Assembly: GCA_004563715.1 (NCBI GenBank)
Contig: SIRX01000144.1
Coordinates: forward strand, 1 to 64,000
Source: Actinomycetota bacterium
Lineage (GTDB): Bacteria > Actinomycetota > Rubrobacteria > Rubrobacterales > Rubrobacteraceae
Direction of reading: 5' to 3'
Length of the DNA stretch: 64,000 bases
The notes below the pieces were generated by a model. That model made no database searches. It saw only the letters and a list, made by a program, of their open reading frames with translations, and was not told the origin of the DNA. This document shows positions 2,849 through 31,627 of the stretch, one piece after another. Numbering within the stretch: the stretch's first letter is position 1; each line of letters starts with the position of its first letter. The position numbers were made by a program, and so were the translations under genes.

Positions 2849-3628
2849 CTAGGCGTTCTCCTTCGAGCTGCCGTTCGTCGAATCGCCGTTCGCCTGGACG
2901 GTCCCCGCAGTAGCCTCGCGGGCTTTCTCCTGCTCCTTGAGCTTCTTCTTGGTTTCCTCGGGGATCCAGCCAACCTCCGTCTGGGAGGCGGGCGGCAGGC
3001 CCTTGCGCTCGAAGACGTAGGTGCGCTCGAGGGGCTTTATGTTCTCGAGGCGCGGGGCCTTGCCCTCGCTGATGTTCGTGTACTCCCGCTCCGGCAGGTA
3101 CTCCATGACGTTGCCCTCGTCGTCCACCAGCGCCGGGCGGGGCCGCTCGTAGCCGACCTGCTGGTCGCGCTCGATCTTCTTCTGCAGCGTCAGGATGCCG
3201 AAGATGAGGGCCTCGGGCCGCGGCGGGCAGCCCGGCACGTAGACGTCCACCGGGATCACCCGGTCGGCCCCCATGAGGACCGAGTAGCCGTCCAGGAAGG
3301 GGCCGCCGCTTATGGCGCACGCTCCCATAGCTATGACCCACTTGGGCTCGGGCATCTGCTCGTAGAGCCGGGTCATCCGCTCGGCCATCTTGGTGGAGAC
3401 CGTGCCCGAAACGATCATGACGTCCGCCTGCCGGGGCGAGCCCGTAAAGAAGCCCGCGCCGAAGCGGTCCAGGTCGTTGTGGGCCATGCCGGAAGACATC
3501 ATCTCGATGGCGCAACACGCCAGCCCGAACTGCAGCGGCCACAGCGAGTTCTTCCGCGCCCAGTTAAAGAGCTTGTCCGTGCTCGTCGTAACGATGTTCG
3601 GCTCGTTGAACTGCTGCATCACACCCAT
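2849..3628 (-). CDS. nuoB: NADH-quinone oxidoreductase subunit B (with long C-terminal tail)
   Basis: Carries the N2 [4Fe-4S] cluster that passes electrons to quinone. The cluster ligands are visible as [11 protein letters not shown] near residue 35, the Cys of [11 protein letters not shown] near 102 and the Cys of [10 protein letters not shown] near 132. At 259 residues the protein is roughly 80 residues longer than typical NuoB. The extra C-terminal part is charged and low in complexity ([16 protein letters not shown]) and is probably disordered. The gene overlaps nuoA by 10 bp. Similar tails are found in some actinobacterial NuoB proteins; whether this one binds a partner is unknown. Confidence 0.96.
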
Positions 3629-4008
3629 TTAAGGGCTCCCTTCTTCCACTCGTAGACGAGTCCCACGGTCAGGATAAAGACGAAGATGACCATCTGGACA
3701 AACCCGTAGAGCCCCAGCTCCCCGTAGACCACCGCCCACGGAAAGAGAAACGCCGCCTCCACGTCAAAGATCAGGAACAGCAGCGCGAAGATGTAGTACC
3801 GCACCGGGAAGGGCCGCCAGGGGTCGGTCACGGTAGACTCGCCCGTCTCGTAGTTCTGCCCCTTCGTCGCCGAACTACTGCTCGGGGAGAGCAGCCGCGC
3901 CAGCACCAGAACGAAGGCGATAAAACCCGAAATCAGCAACATGGAGATCCCGACGTACAGATACAACGTGCCGTAAGCGATCTCCTGCTGCAACAGACCT
4001 AGCGTCAA
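3619..4008 (-). CDS. nuoA: NADH-quinone oxidoreductase subunit A
   Basis: First gene of the complex I operon and a small membrane subunit of 129 residues with three predicted transmembrane helices. The family hallmark, a polar loop with [20 protein letters not shown] followed by [13 protein letters not shown], is present at about residues 60-100. The TTG start is preceded by a purine-rich AGAAAGG site and sits about 30 bp downstream of a near-consensus promoter, so this is the operon's first cistron. Confidence 0.96.
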
Positions 4009-4039
4009 ACCGCGCCTTTCTAACCGGGTAACTAACCGG

Positions 4040-4068
4040 AATATACTCTTGTTTTATACAACTTTCAA
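4040..4068 (-). promoter_or_regulatory. nuo operon promoter
   Basis: On the minus strand TTGAAA is followed, after exactly 17 bp, by TATATT. This is a near-consensus primary-sigma promoter. It lies about 30 bp ahead of the nuoA start codon, in the gap between the M20 peptidase gene and nuoA. Called from sequence alone; no transcript data. Confidence 0.7.
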
Positions 4069-4095
4069 GCGGTAGCTAACGGTAGCAAAAGCCTG

Positions 4096-5124
4096 TTAAT
4101 ATGGGCTTCCGTTGCGACCCAGTATCTGGCAGAACTGAACGAGCATCTGGCGGTAGGTCTCCAGCGAGTCGGACACCACGTACTCCCGGGGACCGTGGTG
4201 GCCACCGCCGATAGGTCCGAACTCCACCCCCGGCATGCCGGCGCGCTGAAAGTACACGATGTCCGAGGCACCGTGGCGTCCCACGCCGACCGGGTTCCCG
4301 TGAAAGTGGCGGGCGGCGACCTCCCGCAGAACGTTCACGTAAGGGCTGGAGCGGGAGACGTAGGTCGGCTCGCGGCTGAACAGGGCCTCTACCTCTGAGG
4401 GGATGTCTATGGACCGGATCTGGCGCGTTATCTCCTCCGGGTCCTGTTGGGGGAGGTAGCGGATGTCCAGGTCGTAGGTGCAGCGGTCCGGGACGCGGTT
4501 TATGACGTCGCCCCCGATAATGCGGGCCAGGTTGACGCTCGGGTAGGGGAAGAGCTCGTTTCGCTCGCTGGCGAAGGGTAGCTCCAGCACGCGCCGGTAG
4601 TGCTCGTAGGCGAACAAGACGGCGTTCTTGCCCAACCAGGGCACCGAGCCGTGGGCGCTCTTGCCGAGCAGCGTGATGCGCAGGTCCAGGACGCCCTTCG
4701 CCTGGGTCCCGATGTGGAAGTCGGTGGGCTCGCCCGTGATCAGGAAGTCCCCCTCGTGGCCGTTGCGGATCAGGATCTCCGCCCCGGTCGGCCCTTCGTA
4801 CTCGCGCTCTTCGTCCGGGACGATGAGGAGCTCTACCGTGCAGTCACACCCGATCTCGTACAGGTCCTGTACGGCGTACATCATGGCCGCCAGGGCGCCC
4901 TTCATGTCGTAGACCCCGCGCCCGTAGAGTTCTCCGTTCTCTTCGTAGGGCTCGAACTGCCACTCGTCGCCGGGAACCACGTCCACATGCCCGTGCAGTA
5001 TTATCCGCGGCTCCCCGGAGCCTACCCGCACGACGAGCGAGGTCAACTCTCCGTTCGGGCCCGCTCCCGGGTAACGCCGGGTCTCCAGGCCCCGCGCCTC
5101 GAACCACCCGTTGATAAAGTCCAT
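4096..5124 (-). CDS. M20-family metallopeptidase / deacylase (ArgE/DapE/CPG2-like)
   Basis: A probable zinc-dependent amidohydrolase that cleaves an acyl or peptide bond in the cytoplasm. The M20 landmarks are HGHVDVVPG at about residue 44, GRGVYDMKG at about 68, the catalytic Glu-Glu of IVPDEERE at about 105, and a late metal ligand in GGGHHGPREY. A dimerisation domain lies in the middle (KGVLDLRITLLGKSAHG). The substrate cannot be set from sequence; ArgE, DapE and carboxypeptidase G2 share this fold. The annotated ATG is probably internal. The frame stays open upstream and encodes a convincing N-terminus (TTEVLTLTRRLVRYQSYTPG) but has no ATG, GTG or TTG. A CTG at 5217 with GGAG a few bases upstream may be the true start. 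Confidence 0.85.
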   Translation of the reverse strand: MDFINGWFEARGLETRRYPGAGPNGELTSLVVRVGSGEPRIILHGHVDVVPGDEWQFEPYEENGELYGRGVYDMKGALAAMMYAVQDLYEIGCDCTVELLIVPDEEREYEGPTGAEILIRNGHEGDFLITGEPTDFHIGTQAKGVLDLRITLLGKSAHGSVPWLGKNAVLFAYEHYRRVLELPFASERNELFPYPSVNLARIIGGDVINRVPDRCTYDLDIRYLPQQDPEEITRQIRSIDIPSEVEALFSREPTYVSRSSPYVNVLREVAARHFHGNPVGVGRHGASDIVYFQRAGMPGVEFGPIGGGHHGPREYVVSDSLETYRQMLVQFCQILGRNGSPY

Positions 5125-20792: not shown

Positions 20793-22295
20793 CTAGCTGC
20801 GAACCCGCTGTAGCTCGCGCAGGAACTCGGAGTTCGTGCGCGTTTCCTTGAGCTTGGTGATCAAGAGCTCCAGCTTCTGCCCGCTGTCGAGGGCGTTGAG
20901 GATGCTGCGCACCTGCCAGACCCGCTGGGCCTCGGCGGGCTCCATGAGCAGCTCCTCCTTGCGTGTACCCGAGTCCTCGATGTTGATGGCCGGGTAGATC
21001 CGCTTGTTCGCCAGCTTGCGGTCGAGCCGCAGCTCCATGTTGCCGGTACCCTTGAACTCCTCGAAGATGACCTCGTCCATCCGGCTTCCGGTCTCGATCA
21101 GGGCGGTAGCCAGGATGGTGAGGGAGCCGCCGTGCTCGATGTTGCGGGCCGCCCCGAAGAACTTCTTGGGCGGGTAGAGGGCCGCAGAGTCCACACCGCC
21201 GGAGAGGATGCGGCCCGAGGCCGGTGCCGCCAGGTTGTAGGCCCGCGAGAGCCGGGTTATGCCATCGAGCAACACCACCACGTCTTCGCCCTCTTCGACG
21301 AGGCGCTTGACGCGCTCCAGCACCAGCTCGGCGACGGCGATGTGGTTGTCGGCGGGCTGGTCGAAGGTCGAGGCTATGACCTCGGCCTCCCGGACGCTGC
21401 GCTCCCAGTCGGTGACCTCCTCCGGCCGCTCGTCGGCCAGGACCACAAAGAGCTTCGTCTCCGGGTAGTTGGCGGCTATGGACTGGGCGATCTGCTTGAG
21501 CATCGTGGTCTTGCCGGCCTTGGGGGGCGAGACGATCATGCCGCGCTGTCCCTTGCCGATGGGGGCCACGAGGTCTATGACCCGGGGCGCTATGTCGTTG
21601 GGCTTCCACTCCAGCCGCAGGCGCTCCATCGGGTAGAGCGGCGTCAGGTCGTCGAAGTTGGGACGCCGGCGGCCCTTCTGGGGCTCCTGGTCGTTTACGG
21701 ACTCGATGCGTACCAGGGCCGGGTACTTCTCGCCGTCGCGGGCGGGCCGGATCTGGCCCACGATGTAGTCTCCGCGCCGCAGGTTAAAGCGCTTTATCTG
21801 GGAGGTGGAGACGTAGACGTCGTTCTTGCCCTGGCTGTAGCCCCCGGTCCGCAAAAAGCCGAAACCGTCGGGCAGCACGTCCAGGACACCGTTCTGGCGG
21901 GGGGCGTCACCCTTCTCCGCAGGCTTCTGGCCACCCCGGTCGCGCTGGCGCTCCTGCCGCTCGGGCTTGCGCTCTTCCCGGCGGCGCTCCACCTCGGCGG
22001 GTTTCTCCACGACGGCCGTATCAGCCTCCCCAAAAGCGTCCACCGGTGCCTGCGTGGCGCCGTTAGACGCCTCGGGAGCCTGCTCGGCTGGCGGGGCGGT
22101 CGAAGCCTGCGCGGAGCTCTCGCCCGAGCCGTCGCGGGCGGTCTGCTGGCTTGCGGCCTGCTCCGTCGCTACCTGGTAGATCTTCTCGGCCAGCTCGGGC
22201 TTGCGGTACTTCCGGTACTGCTCGATCCCGAGTTGGGAGGCGATCTGGTGCAGATCGCTCAGGCGTTTGCGCTCAAGGGTAGCTAGTTCCGTCAT
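20793..22295 (-). CDS. rho: Transcription termination factor Rho
   Basis: Hexameric RNA helicase that ends transcription. The N-terminal Rho domain ([20 protein letters not shown]) is followed by a low-complexity Ala/Glu/Gln/Arg insert of roughly 100 residues. Then come the RNA-binding cold-shock fold ([20 protein letters not shown]) and the ATPase core with Walker [16 protein letters not shown] and the Q-loop region. The length is 500 residues. Inserts of this type before the S1-like domain are common in actinobacterial Rho and add RNA binding. Terminator hairpin directly follows. Confidence 0.96.
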
Positions 22296-22358: not shown

Positions 22359-23315
22359 TTAGAGTTGGAACCCCTGTATGCCCGCATCGGGCTCTAACGC
22401 GTGGATGGAGTCTATAAATCTTACCATACGCGGCTCGGTGCACATCACTATCGAGTGGGTGCGGCCCCCGCCCCGGAAGTACCGGACGCCGCTGAGGACC
22501 TCTCCCGGGGTGATGCCGGTGGCGGCGAAGATCACGTCCTCCCCCCGCACGAGGTCTTCGAGCGTCAGCTTTTTCTCCGGGTCTTCGAGCCCGTTCTCTC
22601 TCAGCTTCTCGACCTGCGAGCGTTGGGTGGGCCACATCGTAGCCTGCATCTCGCCGCCGAGGCACTTGATCGCCGCCGCCGCGAGTATCCCCTCCGGGGC
22701 GCCGCCGACGCCGATGACCGCGTGCAGTTCCGATCCCCGCAGTCCCACGGCTATAGCGGGCGTCAGGTCGCCCTCGGCCCGGATCTGGATGCGGGCTCCG
22801 GTACCCCGGATCTCCTCGATGAGATCCTCGTGGCGCTCCCGGTCGAGGACGGCTACCGTTATCTCCGAGGGCCGGCGCTCGATGGCCTCTGCTATGGCCT
22901 CTATGTTCTCCGCGACCGGCGCGTCGATGTCTATCTTGCCCTTTGCGCGCGGGCCGACGATCAGCTTTCTCATGTACATGTCCGGCACCCGGAGCATGCT
23001 CCCCAGCGGGGCAACGGCGAGCGCGGATATGGATCCTTCCTGGCCCTTGATGAGAAGCTGCAAGCCCTCGACCGGCTCGACGGCGAGGTCCATCTCCGCC
23101 GCGCCGGTGCCGAGCCTGTCGCCCACGCCCAGGACGCCGGGACGGGTCTTGAGGCTCCGTATCCGGCCGCTCTCGTCCAGACGCTCCTCCCGGAGAATGG
23201 CCACCTCCCCCGCGATAGAGACTTTTTCCAACTCCTCCTGAAAGGTCTCGGTCGCCAGGGTATAGGCCTCCTCCGGCGCCCCGGAACCTTCGAAGTGGGC
23301 CACCCGGAGCGCCAC
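22359..23315 (-). CDS. glpX: GlpX-like class II fructose-1,6-bisphosphatase (divergent)
   Basis: Belongs to the GlpX fold family, which hydrolyses fructose-1,6-bisphosphate and, in some bacteria, sedoheptulose bisphosphate. Core motifs are MDLAVEPVEG (family: DxAVDPIEGT), PDMYMRKLIVGPRAKG and GVGGAPEGILAAAAIKCLGGEMQ. However, the metal-binding N-terminus is altered: the usual GDK...D segment reads as GSGAPEEAY and the IGEGE-DEAPML motif is replaced by AILREERLDESG. Activity therefore cannot be assumed. The GTG at 23315 is the only standard start. The frame continues upstream (FRLDSIARTAIEYATVTERV, clearly GlpX-like) to a TGA without another ATG, GTG or TTG. Confidence 0.75.
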   Translation of the reverse strand: MALRVAHFEGSGAPEEAYTLATETFQEELEKVSIAGEVAILREERLDESGRIRSLKTRPGVLGVGDRLGTGAAEMDLAVEPVEGLQLLIKGQEGSISALAVAPLGSMLRVPDMYMRKLIVGPRAKGKIDIDAPVAENIEAIAEAIERRPSEITVAVLDRERHEDLIEEIRGTGARIQIRAEGDLTPAIAVGLRGSELHAVIGVGGAPEGILAAAAIKCLGGEMQATMWPTQRSQVEKLRENGLEDPEKKLTLEDLVRGEDVIFAATGITPGEVLSGVRYFRGGGRTHSIVMCTEPRMVRFIDSIHALEPDAGIQGFQL

Positions 23316-23524: not shown

Positions 23525-24862
23525 TTATACACCAGCCGCGGGAGGCTGCCCACCGTTCTCCCGGAGGGCTTCCCGGGCTACCCGCAGCAGCGCGTCGTCG
23601 AGCCCTTCTCCGACCGGGTTGTTGTCACAGTAGAAGACCGGCTTTCCTTCCTCGGCGCCGCGCCGGGTCACCACGTCCACCGCCGCGGCCTTTATCTCGG
23701 TGAGGTACGCTTCAGCACCCTCCACGGCGTCCAGGTCCGCGACCAGCCGCCGGCGGTCCGAGAGGTTCCCCGAGACCGCAACGACCTCGCAACCGTGGCT
23801 CTCTTCCAGGTGACGCGCCAGCTTCTCCAGCACCTGCGGCGGGGCGGTCGAGACGTACGCCACCTTCAGACCTTCGACCTCGCCGACGGGCCGGGGCCGG
23901 AACACAGTGGGGATAACCTCGATCTCCGGCTTTACCTCCCGCACTTTCTCCACGAGCCGCCTTACCTTCTCGCCGCTCGCCATCGGCTCCTCGCTCATCG
24001 CCAGGAGAAGGAGGTCCGAGATCATGAGCCGGTAAGCCCCGAGGTATCCGGTGATGTAGTCCTCTTCCTGATGCGCCCCGGCGACGAGTACCCGCCGGTC
24101 TGTAGCAACCGGCGGTATCGCTGCCCCCGAGCCGTCGAAGACCGTGATCCCGGTCTCCAGCGTGTTCGCCAGTGCCGCCCCTTCCAGCACGTTGGAGACG
24201 AACGGGTCCCCGGCGAGCCCCCCGCCGCAGCGCCGGCAGCCGACGGTCGTGACCCGGCTGAGGGCCGCCGTCTCGTAGTAGTCGCTCGCCGCGTGCGCCC
24301 CCCGCTCCAGGGCCTCCAGCAGGTAGTCGCTGCCGACGAGGAGCTTGTGGCCCTCGATCACCTCCGGCTCCGGCGGCCCGCCCCGGCCCATCGAGACGAC
24401 GCCGGGATCAAAGCCCTCCCGCGCCAGAAGCCGCGCCAGGTACCCCGCTATAGCCGTCTTCCCCACCCGCTTGCCGGTCCCGATAACCGCCAGCGAGGGT
24501 TTCTCCGAGACGTTTTGCAGCTCCGGCGGCCGCAGCTCGAAGTCGCTCCCCACGTAGCGCGCCCCGGCCGCCAGGGCCAGAGACGCGATCCTCATCCGCT
24601 CCCGGTAACCCACCACCGGCTCGTCGGAGAGGTCCACCACCACATCTACAGCGTGTTCGTCGAGCGCCCGGCCGACCGCCGCCACGGGCGAGCCGCCCTT
24701 GATCAGGGGCACGCCGTAGTCCGTGCCTTCCTTGAGCTTCTCCGTGCCGCCGAGAAAGGCCGCGGCCACGCCCTCGGCGCCAAGGTCCTCGCGCACGGCC
24801 CGCATGGCGTCGAGGACGACGGGCGGGTAATGCTCGCCGTCTATGAGGAACAGAGCCCGCAC
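23525..24862 (-). CDS. cpgS: Cyclic 2,3-diphosphoglycerate synthetase-like
   Basis: Resembles the enzyme that uses ATP to cyclise 2,3-diphosphoglycerate to cyclic 2,3-diphosphoglycerate, a thermoprotectant solute first known from methanogens. The 445 residues begin with the family opening ALFLIDGEHYPPVVLDAM. A P-loop (VIGTGKRVGKTAIAGYLARL) lies at about residue 126-145, and DRRVLVAGAHQEEDYITGYL follows. The length fits the archaeal enzyme. Known from a few bacteria only, so the product is inferred by family. It is 13 bp downstream of a metallophosphoesterase gene with which it shares a promoter. Alternatives are an uncharacterised P-loop ligase of the same family. Confidence 0.72.
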   Translation of the reverse strand: MRALFLIDGEHYPPVVLDAMRAVREDLGAEGVAAAFLGGTEKLKEGTDYGVPLIKGGSPVAAVGRALDEHAVDVVVDLSDEPVVGYRERMRIASLALAAGARYVGSDFELRPPELQNVSEKPSLAVIGTGKRVGKTAIAGYLARLLAREGFDPGVVSMGRGGPPEPEVIEGHKLLVGSDYLLEALERGAHAASDYYETAALSRVTTVGCRRCGGGLAGDPFVSNVLEGAALANTLETGITVFDGSGAAIPPVATDRRVLVAGAHQEEDYITGYLGAYRLMISDLLLLAMSEEPMASGEKVRRLVEKVREVKPEIEVIPTVFRPRPVGEVEGLKVAYVSTAPPQVLEKLARHLEESHGCEVVAVSGNLSDRRRLVADLDAVEGAEAYLTEIKAAAVDVVTRRGAEEGKPVFYCDNNPVGEGLDDALLRVAREALRENGGQPPAAGV

Positions 24863-24875
24863 AGAACCGGGTGCG

Positions 24876-25703
24876 CTACTCTCCGCGGACCACGGTCTCC
24901 GGGTCCACGCCGACCTCGGAGTCGATCTTCTCCTCGTAGCGGGAGTACCGGTGCGTCTCGGCGTTGAAGTCCACGGCCAGCTCCCGCTGCTTGAACGGGT
25001 ACTTGCGGAAAACCTGTACCCGGCCGTTCTCGATCTCGATGATGTTGTAGCAGGGCCGGGTGTTGCCCCGCAACCGGGTCGTCGAGGCGGTGCCGGCGTT
25101 CACGATGAACATGTTCTCCAGCTTCCAGGAGTACGGCACGTGCTTGTGGCCGGAGAGGACCAAGTCCACGCCCACCTCATCCAGAAGCTCCAGCACGTCG
25201 CCGGCGTCGAAGATGATGTTCCGCTCCCGGCCCGTGCCGGGGATCGGGATCAGGTGGTGGTGGATCACGAAGATCTTGAGCTTGTCGTCCTTGCCGGAGA
25301 ACGCTTCGTGGATAAAGCCGTAGTGCTCGCGCCCCACCCGTCCGTCGTTCAGGTCCGGCTCTGAGGAGTCTATACCGACCATGACGGCCTCATCGAAGTC
25401 GATGCACGAGTACCGCTCGCCGAAGAGCCGCTCGAAATGCACGTATCCCACGTTGCGGGAGTCGTGGTTGCCCGGGATGACCATTACGTGTTCGCAGCGG
25501 ATGCGGCTCACGTACTCGGCCGCCGTCTCGAACTCCTGCCGGTAACCCGAGGCCGTGAGATCCCCGGAGACGACCACCGCCGTGGGCTCCAGGTCGTTGA
25601 CCTCCAGGATAGTCCGCTCCAGCAGGTCCGGTATAAAGTAGGGGTTGTTGCCGCAGTGGATGTCGCTGATCTGGCAGATCGTCAACCGGCCGCCCGTGCT
25701 CAT
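24876..25703 (-). CDS. Metallophosphoesterase (calcineurin-like, CpdA/Icc type)
   Basis: A dimetal phosphodiesterase of 275 residues. All core motifs are present: ISDIHCG (motif I) at about residue 12, VVVSGDLT at about 44, IPGNHD at about 75, IHHHLIPIPG and SGHKHVPY in the second half. It resembles the CpdA class III cyclic nucleotide phosphodiesterases, but the substrate is not determined by sequence. It lies directly upstream of the cyclic diphosphoglycerate synthetase-like gene, which raises the possibility that it hydrolyses that cyclic phosphate. Confidence 0.88.
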   Translation of the reverse strand: MSTGGRLTICQISDIHCGNNPYFIPDLLERTILEVNDLEPTAVVVSGDLTASGYRQEFETAAEYVSRIRCEHVMVIPGNHDSRNVGYVHFERLFGERYSCIDFDEAVMVGIDSSEPDLNDGRVGREHYGFIHEAFSGKDDKLKIFVIHHHLIPIPGTGRERNIIFDAGDVLELLDEVGVDLVLSGHKHVPYSWKLENMFIVNAGTASTTRLRGNTRPCYNIIEIENGRVQVFRKYPFKQRELAVDFNAETHRYSRYEEKIDSEVGVDPETVVRGE

Positions 25704-29080: not shown

Positions 29081-29956
29081 TCAGGCGTTTTTGTCTACCA
29101 GTTCGCCCTGCACGACCAGCCGCTTTGAGTAGTCGGGAAGGGTGCAGGTCTGGAGGGTCACGATCTCCCGGCCCTCGATCGGGTTCATTACCTCCACGTC
29201 GAAGGGGTCGGTCACGAGGGTATTGAAGACCCGGTAGCCGTACTCGTTTCCAGCGGAGTCCCTGACGAGGATCTCGTCTCCCTCCACCAGCTTGTCGAGG
29301 TCGTAGAAGACCAAGTGGGACCCGGTCCCCGGATAACCGATGCGGTGTCCGGCGATGTAGGTGTTGGCCCCCTCTTGCCACGGGAAGCCCGTCGCCGGAA
29401 CGTGGACGGTAGACTCTACCAGGGCCTCGTCGGAGGTGGAGTTGATGACCTTTACGTCCTCCAGCCCGATCCTGGGCACCGTGACGTACATCGTCTTGTC
29501 CTCCGGACCGCCCGGGTCGCGGCCGAAGTTAAAGGGCTTTACGGCCGGTATGGCCCCGGCCGAACCACCCGTGTTGAAGAACTGGGCGGTGTTCGGCACG
29601 TCGTTGCCTATGGACGGGTCGTTCCAGTCCTTGAACTCCGGAGCGCCCTGCAAATTTTCAGGGTCCGGCGTCGCCGTCTCGGAAGCGGACCGGAGCAACT
29701 CCTCGTACTCGTCGCCGACAGCCTCTTCCCCGGCAGGGGCCCGGTCCGGCTCCGTAGCCTGCTGCGTATCTTGCTGCTGCGTATCTTGCTGCTGCGTATC
29801 TTGCTGCTGCGTAACCTCCGGCGGCCGCTCGACGCTCGCGCTCTCTCGATCGGTGGCCGTACCAGCGCAACCTGCCAGCGTGAGGGCGACAGCAAGCAAC
29901 AGGGCGGCGAGCGCCGCCCTGGTGCAATTTGCTGGTAGTAGGAATCGCCGGGTCAT
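29081..29956 (-). CDS. Class E sortase-like cysteine transpeptidase, lipoprotein form
   Basis: A surface transpeptidase of 291 residues. It begins with a signal peptide and lipobox (LLLAVALTLAGCAG), so it is probably lipid-anchored instead of membrane-spanning. A low-complexity linker with three TQQQD repeats follows. The sortase domain has the catalytic His (NTYIAGHRIGYPG, about residue 200), Cys (VTLQTCTLP, about 270) and Arg (SKRLVVQGEL). TLQTC is the sortase signature. Class E sortases are the housekeeping type in Actinobacteria. No substrate with an LPXTG- or LAXTG-like tail was seen nearby. Confidence 0.85.
   Translation of the reverse strand: MTRRFLLPANCTRAALAALLLAVALTLAGCAGTATDRESASVERPPEVTQQQDTQQQDTQQQDTQQATEPDRAPAGEEAVGDEYEELLRSASETATPDPENLQGAPEFKDWNDPSIGNDVPNTAQFFNTGGSAGAIPAVKPFNFGRDPGGPEDKTMYVTVPRIGLEDVKVINSTSDEALVESTVHVPATGFPWQEGANTYIAGHRIGYPGTGSHLVFYDLDKLVEGDEILVRDSAGNEYGYRVFNTLVTDPFDVEVMNPIEGREIVTLQTCTLPDYSKRLVVQGELVDKNA
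29761..29814. repeat. 15-bp tandem repeat (3.6 copies) inside the sortase gene
   Basis: The unit TGCTGCGTATCTTGC occurs three times in a row, then partly a fourth time. It encodes a repeated Asp-Thr-Gln-Gln-Gln peptide in the linker between the lipobox and the sortase domain. Being a multiple of three, copy number change would alter linker length without a frameshift. Confidence 0.85.
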
Positions 29957-29966
29957 ACTCTCCGCA

Positions 29967-30659
29967 CTATACCGCCCGGTGCGGTCCGCCGGCAGTCGGC
30001 CCGCCGGTATCCATCATCTCGCCCATGCCGAGGAACGGCGCGACGGCCGCGAGTACCTCGTCTACGGTGAGCGCCTGCGGGAAAGCCTCGGTCGTCGGGG
30101 GAACGAAGCCCAGCAGGTTCCTGACGGAGACCACGTGCTCGCCCTCGACGCCGGCGATGCTGCCCGCGGCGGCCAGGACGGTCGGGTCCTGGATCAGCGG
30201 CCCGGCCCCGATGTAGGCTCCCTGGCCCGTGGGCTCCAGGACGCTCGCCAGTTCCAGGACGCCCTGCTGGCTGGCCAGCGACTCCGGCGGGAAGGTGAAC
30301 TCCGGCTTCTCCACCGGCGTACCGCCGAACTGCTCGATCAGCCCGATAATGGCCTCGGCGTGCGCGATCTCGTGGTCGCGCAGGTTGGTCACCACGCCCA
30401 GCGCGGAACCCGAGAGGACCCCGGAATCCACCGCCAGCGTGTAGAACTCCGCCTCCAGGAACTCCAGCGTCAGGGCGAAGTTCGCTATGTCTATGTCGTC
30501 GTTGATCTCGCCGAGCTGCGCGTTGGCCGGCCGGGACAGCATCATGCCCCCGGCGGCCGCCCCGATGCTGGCTGCAGCGAGGGTCTTCAAGAAGTTCCTT
30601 CTGCTGTGGGGCTTCTCGAACGCCCCGAAGCTCGGGACCTCTATCTTCTGGTTAACCAT
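29967..30659 (-). CDS. Tat-exported ferritin-like domain protein 1
   Basis: A 230-residue protein with a twin-arginine signal (SRRNFLKTLAAASIGAAAGG). The signal is followed by a ferritin-like four-helix bundle of the Ferritin_2 type (LEFLEAEFYTLAVDSG with a Glu, then LRDHEIAHAEAIIGLI with Glu and His ligands, and GVEGEHVVSVRNLLG). The residues could bind a di-iron or similar metal site outside the cell. Its role, iron storage versus oxidative defence, is not known. It lies 18 bp downstream of a paralogue, so the pair is probably co-transcribed. Confidence 0.85.
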   Translation of the reverse strand: MVNQKIEVPSFGAFEKPHSRRNFLKTLAAASIGAAAGGMMLSRPANAQLGEINDDIDIANFALTLEFLEAEFYTLAVDSGVLSGSALGVVTNLRDHEIAHAEAIIGLIEQFGGTPVEKPEFTFPPESLASQQGVLELASVLEPTGQGAYIGAGPLIQDPTVLAAAGSIAGVEGEHVVSVRNLLGFVPPTTEAFPQALTVDEVLAAVAPFLGMGEMMDTGGPTAGGPHRAV

Positions 30660-30677: not shown

Positions 30678-31346
30678 TTAGCCCAAGCCGAACGGCGCGA
30701 CGGCTTCCTGCACCTGCGGCAGCGGCAGCGCCTCCTCGAAAGCCACGTTGTTGGGCGGGTCTATCCCGAGAAGTATCTTGATCCCGTTCCAGTGCTCGCA
30801 CTCGGAGTTGTGGATCGAGAGCGCCGCGCCCAGGATCTCCTTGCTCTCCAGCGCCGGAGCCGCACCCTGGTAAGCTCCGATGCCGACCGGCTCGAAGGTG
30901 TTCGCCAGGTCCAGGAAAGACGCCGGGTCTTCGAACACACCGTCCGGATAGGTGAACTCCGGCGTAGCCGGAACCTCGGCCCCCAGCTGCTGCAGCGTGG
31001 CCGCCAGCGCGTCGGCGTGCGCGAACTCGTGGTCGCGGATCGCCTCCACCTGCGCCAGAGCGTTGCCGCTCACGGTGCCCATGTCGGCGCCCATCTGGTA
31101 GAACGTGCCCTCCAGCAGCTCGAGCTGGTAGGCGAACTGCAGGATAGCGGCGTCCCCGAGCCCCTGGTAGGTCTCGAAGGGCGCACCGCCACCCTCCTGC
31201 GCTCCAGCGTACCGGGTGGCGAATCCGACCCCGCCGATACCGGCCGCCGACAGGGCCGCTCCGGCCCACGCCGCGGTCTTCAAGAAGTTGCGCCGTGAGA
31301 CCTCCCGGCCGATACCGGCTGCCCCGACGCCCCGCACTCTACTCAT
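30678..31346 (-). CDS. Tat-exported ferritin-like domain protein 2
   Basis: Paralogue of the next gene downstream. It has a twin-arginine signal (SRRNFLKTAAWAGAALSAAG) and the same helix motifs (QLELLEGTFYQMGADMG, IRDHEFAHADALAATL and HNSECEHWNGIKILLG). The metal-ligand Glu and His are kept, with a Cys near the third motif. The ORF track starts at 31382. I prefer the ATG at 31346 (MSRVRGVGAAG) or the ATG two codons earlier, both just after AGAAAGGAAGGAC, because no ribosome site precedes 31382. Probable extracytoplasmic function; divergent from an ECF sigma gene. Confidence 0.83.
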   Translation of the reverse strand: MSRVRGVGAAGIGREVSRRNFLKTAAWAGAALSAAGIGGVGFATRYAGAQEGGGAPFETYQGLGDAAILQFAYQLELLEGTFYQMGADMGTVSGNALAQVEAIRDHEFAHADALAATLQQLGAEVPATPEFTYPDGVFEDPASFLDLANTFEPVGIGAYQGAAPALESKEILGAALSIHNSECEHWNGIKILLGIDPPNNVAFEEALPLPQVQEAVAPFGLG

Positions 31347-31627
31347 CGACATGTCCTTCCTTTCTGGGCCAGAAAAGCCCATCCAGAGGTCAGTTGCTAC
31401 CAGGCATTACGGGAGCGGGTTGGTCCTGGATCATCCACAGAACGACCCTGCAGCGAAAATGGGCGCACAAGCGCGTTCTGCCTTTGACACGCGCACCGGT
31501 TCGCTACCGGAGGTACGGGTGAACGCTCTCGACGAGCCCCTCGTCGCCACGCGGGGCGTAACCGCCGTCAGGGGCGTTGAAGCCGGTCGTGATCCGGCCC
31601 ACGCCCGGCACCGTAGAATATACAATC

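Follow-up and report, generated by a model that had tools for sequence, protein, structure and literature searches.

Predicted bacterial module for cyclic 2,3-diphosphoglycerate in Rubrobacteraceae, with a metallophosphoesterase as candidate hydrolase

The stretch of DNA analyzed here (the window; 64,000 nucleotides, positions 1 to 64,000 of contig SIRX01000144.1 in assembly GCA_004563715.1, from a member of the Rubrobacteraceae, Actinomycetota) carries a gene for a cyclic 2,3-diphosphoglycerate (cDPG) synthetase (cDPGS) and, directly upstream of it, a gene for a metallophosphoesterase (MPE). Taken as a whole, the evidence moderately favors a bacterial cDPG module, in which 2-phosphoglycerate kinase (2PGK) and cDPGS would make the compound and MPE would hydrolyze it. 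Judged from its genes, the organism very probably produces cDPG and, provided that it does so, MPE is probably the cDPG hydrolase, a substrate suggested by genomic association. In archaea, 2-phosphoglycerate is converted to cDPG by 2PGK followed by cDPGS, and cDPG has been called exclusive to hyperthermophilic methanogens in papers of 2023 and 2025 (PMC10690619, PMC12136491). What is new here is a predicted bacterial variant of this known pathway, together with a testable candidate for the hydrolase.

Organization of the locus

The MPE gene (24876–25703, 275 residues; Pfam Metallophos, E = 4.8e-18) is followed, after a spacer of 13 bp (24863–24875), by the cDPGS gene (23525–24862, 445 residues), which starts with GTG. 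Both genes are found on the minus strand at exactly the positions where the sequence-only reading had placed a cDPGS-like gene 13 bp after a phosphoesterase gene. The order on this strand continues from MPE and cDPGS to a glpX-like gene and rho, with argS located upstream of MPE. The nearest named relatives of the window genome are Rubrobacteraceae metagenome-assembled genomes (MAGs) and Rubrobacter isolates, and MPE and cDPGS adjoin in nearly all Rubrobacteraceae loci fetched. The dN/dS ratios (NG86) of cDPGS and MPE, calculated against three relatives, are 0.12–0.26, and both genes are under purifying selection; this selection and the near-universal adjacency place the pair far beyond chance. 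A search for RNA elements near the operon gave no Rfam match.

The cDPG synthetase

Residues 3–433 of the window protein align with residues 6–452 of cDPGS from Methanothermus fervidus, the unique N-terminal domain of this enzyme included (8oru, E = 1.4e-127), with 48% identity over 431 residues. Nearly the entire window protein is covered by the matches to both structures of the M. fervidus enzyme (8ork and 8oru), and another cDPG synthetase in the PDB, 9sxb, matches it at E = 3.8e-112. No Pfam model matches this protein, and an NCBIfam assignment to KamB was dropped, since it consists of a weak P-loop match only, whereas the PDB matches span the full length.

In the complex of the M. fervidus enzyme, the ligands ADP, Mg, and 2,3-diphosphoglycerate (2,3-DPG) are bound by residues that have been named (PMC10690619). 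In the alignment to the deposited chain, E41, K42, K131, R132, K135, T136, D194, E291, T339, E389, and K391 are kept in the window protein, and all of them except E291 and T339 form a set of nine positions that are invariant across 47 bacterial homologs. Position 335, which is Pro according to PMC10690619 and Phe in the aligned chain, was left unused. The Walker A loop GTGKRVGKT (residues 128–136; 24455–24481, minus strand) includes K131, R132, K135, and T136, equivalent to K145, R146, K149, and T150 in M. fervidus, with roles taken from PMC10690619. Residues E41 and K42 (24737–24742, minus strand; E45 and K46 in M. fervidus) would be contributed by the partner subunit to the site that binds 2,3-DPG, and E389 and K391 (23690–23698, minus strand) correspond to E404 and K406. 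By its sequence and its conserved ligand residues, the product of the 445-residue gene is identified as an intact cDPGS.

In the complete genome of Rubrobacter marinus (locus L059, 6001–7284), the matches to cDPGS fall into several different reading frames, which may reflect either a decaying gene or sequencing errors.

2-Phosphoglycerate kinase and co-occurrence of the pathway genes

One full-length 2PGK is encoded in the window's own genome, although not near the MPE–cDPGS pair (G000:C130:3582–4490, corresponding to 3573–4529 of locus L064); it scored 358.6 bits against a cut-off of 343 in a search with NF003259. With this enzyme and cDPGS, the genome encodes both steps of cDPG synthesis. 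The earlier proposal that the gene pair makes cDPG is backed on the side of the synthetase by its sequence and ligand residues, and the 2PGK, which that proposal did not include, is the strongest evidence in its favor. In the tree, a very long branch separates the 2PGKs of Rubrobacteraceae from the cDPGS-adjacent 2PGKs of other Actinomycetota, and the Rubrobacteraceae copies outscore these operon 2PGKs on the 2PGK model. The simplest reading of the tree is that Rubrobacteraceae would have lost the operon 2PGK and retained the step by means of a distant version.

Co-occurrence was evaluated in 397 Actinomycetota genomes, drawn evenly and at least 90% complete, with presence defined by E < 1e-30 for cDPGS, E < 1e-50 for 2PGK, and E < 1e-40 for MPE; a marginal cDPGS match in G386 (7e-4) was excluded. 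Both cDPGS and 2PGK are present in 151 genomes and both are absent from 244, with a single genome containing only cDPGS (G184, in which the cDPGS match begins at a contig end) and a single one containing only 2PGK (G066). About a third of the sampled genomes carry the full gene set for cDPG synthesis. The corresponding counts for cDPGS and the MPE family are 150 genomes with both, 241 with neither, two with cDPGS only, and four with MPE only. The Fisher p values for co-occurrence, about 1e-102 and 1e-109, ignore relatedness and are not taken as probabilities, and the pattern extends over dozens of families.

It could be argued that the bacterial cDPGS has drifted to a related phosphorylated acid, on which it would perform an ATP-dependent phosphoanhydride or ring formation, with MPE acting on the product. 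Identity to the archaeal enzyme is just about 48%, a published assay of a bacterial member was not found in the open-access literature, and a study of Rubrobacter solutes, which quantified trehalose, mannosylglycerate, and di-myo-inositol phosphate (DIP) by a design not aimed at detecting cDPG, does not mention this compound (PMC3505630). On the other hand, every checked residue in contact with 2,3-DPG, Mg, or the nucleotide is kept, and cDPGS is almost always accompanied by 2PGK, whose product is 2,3-DPG, making such a drift quite improbable and cDPG itself the preferred product.

Clusters containing the synthesis genes were also found in other phyla. A Poribacteria MAG (L058, 4787–9193) and a Ca. 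Abyssobacteria MAG (L061, 1912–6191) each have consecutive genes for 2PGK, cDPGS, a phosphoglycerate mutase (apgM), and a protein with a CBS domain, and MPE was not found in these two clusters. In L058 the mutase scores above the cut-off of its own model but below that for homoserine kinase, so the L058 cluster would span the route from 3-phosphoglycerate to cDPG. No relatives were matched in plasmid and viral collections.

Gene order and gene loss

Gene order was compared in 41 fetched loci from 34 families, all outside the window's own family. MPE adjoins cDPGS in 35 of these loci and 2PGK adjoins cDPGS in 40, the exception, L067, being located at a contig end. The fully read loci have the order MPE–cDPGS–2PGK–fructose-6-phosphate aldolase/transaldolase–rho, and in families f27 and f43 glpX comes after 2PGK, as it does after cDPGS in the window. 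Since the block is often found beside rho, adjacency could be a matter of inherited inertia and was not accepted alone as proof.

In three loci (L076, L118, and L134), the MPE–cDPGS–2PGK trio is kept with no rho within the fetched stretch. In the rearranged loci L129 (7383–9019, family f65) and L131 (4551–5321, family f77), the MPEs beside cDPGS belong to the paralog clade, with two of them in tandem in f65, which suggests a separate recruitment to this place. Locus L111 of family f22 has the order apgM-like–MPE–cDPGS–2PGK–transaldolase–rho, whereas in its relative G065 (L160) the order is apgM-like–transaldolase–rho, and tblastn found no trace of the missing genes; MPE, cDPGS, and 2PGK have been lost together there, with both flanks intact. 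The loci without rho in the stretch fetched, the recruited paralogs, and the empty site in G065 speak for a function of the trio that goes beyond the inertia of gene order. Two genomes of family f21 (G097 and G278) were dropped as cases of joint loss, since rho was also not found in them and an assembly gap or the loss of a larger block could explain them. The apgM-like gene upstream of MPE in f22 was likewise dropped as a pathway gene, its counterpart in L075 also passing the cut-off for a "proposed homoserine kinase".

These loci bear on the possibility that MPE has no relation to the pathway, being a housekeeping enzyme or a phosphodiesterase of cyclic nucleotides that simply lies in a conserved block near rho. 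Such a role would agree with its family resemblance to CpdA and Rv0805, as well as with the frequent position of the block beside rho, itself without evident link. However, MPE accompanies cDPGS in 150 of 152 genomes, their adjacency persists without nearby rho, and the whole trio has disappeared from G065 while its flanks were kept. In addition, MPE scores 26 bits against PRK11148, the equivalog model for CpdA, far under the cut-off of 225, and its assignment as the 3',5'-cAMP phosphodiesterase CpdA was rejected. An unrelated role of MPE is very improbable. The phosphoesterase as a partner of cDPGS, as proposed by the sequence-only reading, is borne out by the adjacency of the two genes in different families, by their co-occurrence across genomes, and by one clean case in which they were lost jointly, with cDPG as its probable substrate.

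The metallophosphoesterase

The Pfam Metallophos match, the metal motifs, and the fold all place MPE in the calcineurin-like superfamily. The metal motifs, all encoded on the minus strand, are SDIHCG (residues 13–18; 25650–25667), with S13, D14, H16, and G18 invariant in alignment A1, GNHD (residues 78–81; 25461–25472), invariant in the same alignment, and GHKH (residues 185–188; 25140–25151), with G185, H186, and H188 invariant and K187 nearly so. The AlphaFold model (pLDDT 91.1, pTM 0.88) is that of a compact globular metallophosphoesterase, and the closest solved folds are those of the glycerophosphodiesterase GpdQ (3d03), which is the nearest, and of Rv0805. With these class III metallophosphoesterases MPE has in common the fold and the motifs D-x-H, GD, GNHD, H, and GHxH, but the identity over the structural match is ~17%, and the MPE family has its own conserved motifs, PxPGTGRER and GHKHVPxxW, as well as several conserved arginines. 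The latter (R83, R97, R125, R159, R161, R210, and R212) would fit a small phosphate ester with several charges. Operon-type MPEs, including that of the window, form one supported clade (100/96), separate from most paralogs in the same genomes.

The structure of zebrafish ADPRibase-Mn (2nxf) is also among the fold matches, lower in the list. ADPRibase-Mn is a metallophosphoesterase that hydrolyzes cyclic ADP-ribose at its phosphoanhydride (PMC3407115), so that opening of the cDPG ring by an MPE has a chemical precedent within the superfamily.

Neighboring genes

The glpX-like gene (22359–23315, minus strand; PF03320, E = 5.3e-99) is the next one downstream of cDPGS, followed by rho (20793–22295). 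It is the only glpX-type gene found in the genome and scores under the TIGR00330 cut-off. Two motif regions of class II fructose-1,6-bisphosphatase look altered in its product, with GDKNMAD aligned to GAPEEAY and DPxEGT reading EPVEGL, and likewise in the relatives L033 and L049; the product is possibly something other than a typical fructose-1,6-bisphosphatase. Farther away on the minus strand, the neighboring genes 29967–30659 and 30678–31382 encode two proteins that resemble each other and have RRNFLKT as a twin-arginine-like start, and that by reading are putative ferritin-like exported proteins, and 29081–29956 encodes a putative sortase-like lipoprotein with a short in-frame repeat, QQDTQ, seen by eye near the N terminus.

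Discussion

In the proposed pathway, 2PGK, encoded elsewhere in the genome, would convert 2-phosphoglycerate to 2,3-DPG, which cDPGS would close with ATP into the ring of cDPG. The adjacent MPE, with its binuclear metal site, would reopen the phosphoanhydride of this ring to give 2,3-DPG, and phosphate and carbon would then return to central metabolism. The methanogen pathway (M. fervidus, M. kandleri, Methanothermobacter) shares 2PGK and cDPGS with this system, over the full length and with the residues for ATP, Mg, and 2,3-DPG conserved in cDPGS; the system of the window differs in being bacterial, in occurring also in settings that are not hot, and in its clustering with a phosphoesterase. 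Outside methanogens, cDPGS is known from the genomes of Nitrosocaldaceae and Pyrococcus yayanosii (PMC7819960, PMC7554672, PMC4890121), which are archaeal and in which it was interpreted as an adaptation to heat or pressure, in contrast to the bacterial operon described here, which is broadly distributed in Actinomycetota. In 5.39 million open-access papers, cDPG and cDPGS are described from archaea only; subscription papers lie mostly outside this set, so an earlier report of the bacterial genes is possible.

A membrane-bound cDPG hydrolase activity of Methanobacterium thermoautotrophicum was described in work from 1994, cited in PMC1224877, and a gene assigned to it was not found in the open-access literature. 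The reaction proposed for MPE, from cDPG to 2,3-DPG, is alike, but MPE is modeled as a compact globular protein. That with MPE a gene for a cDPG hydrolase has been identified for the first time, and that a full cDPG cycle operates as a phosphate and carbon reserve or stress protectant in about a third of Actinomycetota, including many that are not thermophilic, is a tentative proposal to which we give slightly less than even chances.

Several observations speak against the module as proposed. MPE does not adjoin cDPGS in six of the 41 loci, and two genomes with cDPGS (G038 and G324) have no MPE of the family at E < 1e-40, so that MPE is not essential to the pathway. Non-operon paralogs carry the same motifs, the two groups share most conserved residues, and the closest solved relatives of MPE are phosphodiesterases. 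A biochemical test of a bacterial cDPGS homolog did not emerge from the open-access literature, the Rubrobacter solute study is silent on cDPG, and the reaction of cDPGS from M. fervidus is reported to run in both directions (PMC1224877). The last point leads to an alternative, in which cDPG is made but MPE is a phosphatase of 2,3-DPG or another phosphoglycerate, serving precursor control or disposal, with cDPG reopened by reversal of cDPGS. The genomic and phyletic link of MPE would then be identical, and some lineages hold cDPGS and 2PGK with no neighboring MPE. Yet GpdQ and Rv0805, the closest fold neighbors, act on diesters, and a separate hydrolase activity and a seemingly irreversible cDPGS were reported for Methanobacterium (PMC1224877). 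We regard this phosphatase role as unlikely and hydrolysis of cDPG by MPE as preferred.

The sequence-only reading had also linked cDPG to tolerance of heat or radiation. The cDPGS gene is present in hot-spring Rubrobacter taiwanensis as well as in groundwater MAGs (L058; L060, nzgw108 by name). A role in heat or radiation tolerance is not supported, since groundwater bacteria carry the genes and cDPG goes unmentioned in the Rubrobacter solute study; heat protection as the main role of cDPG in the window organism is improbable. More plausibly, cDPG would be a phosphate and carbon reserve or a general stress protectant. In agreement with the reserve proposed for Methanobacterium (PMC1224877), the former may be preferred, with low confidence.

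Both synthesis genes, tightly linked, are found in 151 of 397 Actinomycetota genomes as well as in another two phyla of bacteria, and a concrete candidate gene is now available for the hydrolase activity described in the 1990s. A mesophilic cDPGS could aid the production of cDPG as an extremolyte. Genome papers on ammonia-oxidizing archaea treat cDPGS as a marker of heat; if cDPG is made in these bacteria, cDPGS would be unusable as a marker of thermophily, and the role of cDPG would have to be rethought in terms of a reserve, or of protection in redox stress or desiccation, rather than heat. If this is true, cDPG would not be a specialty of archaeal thermophiles.
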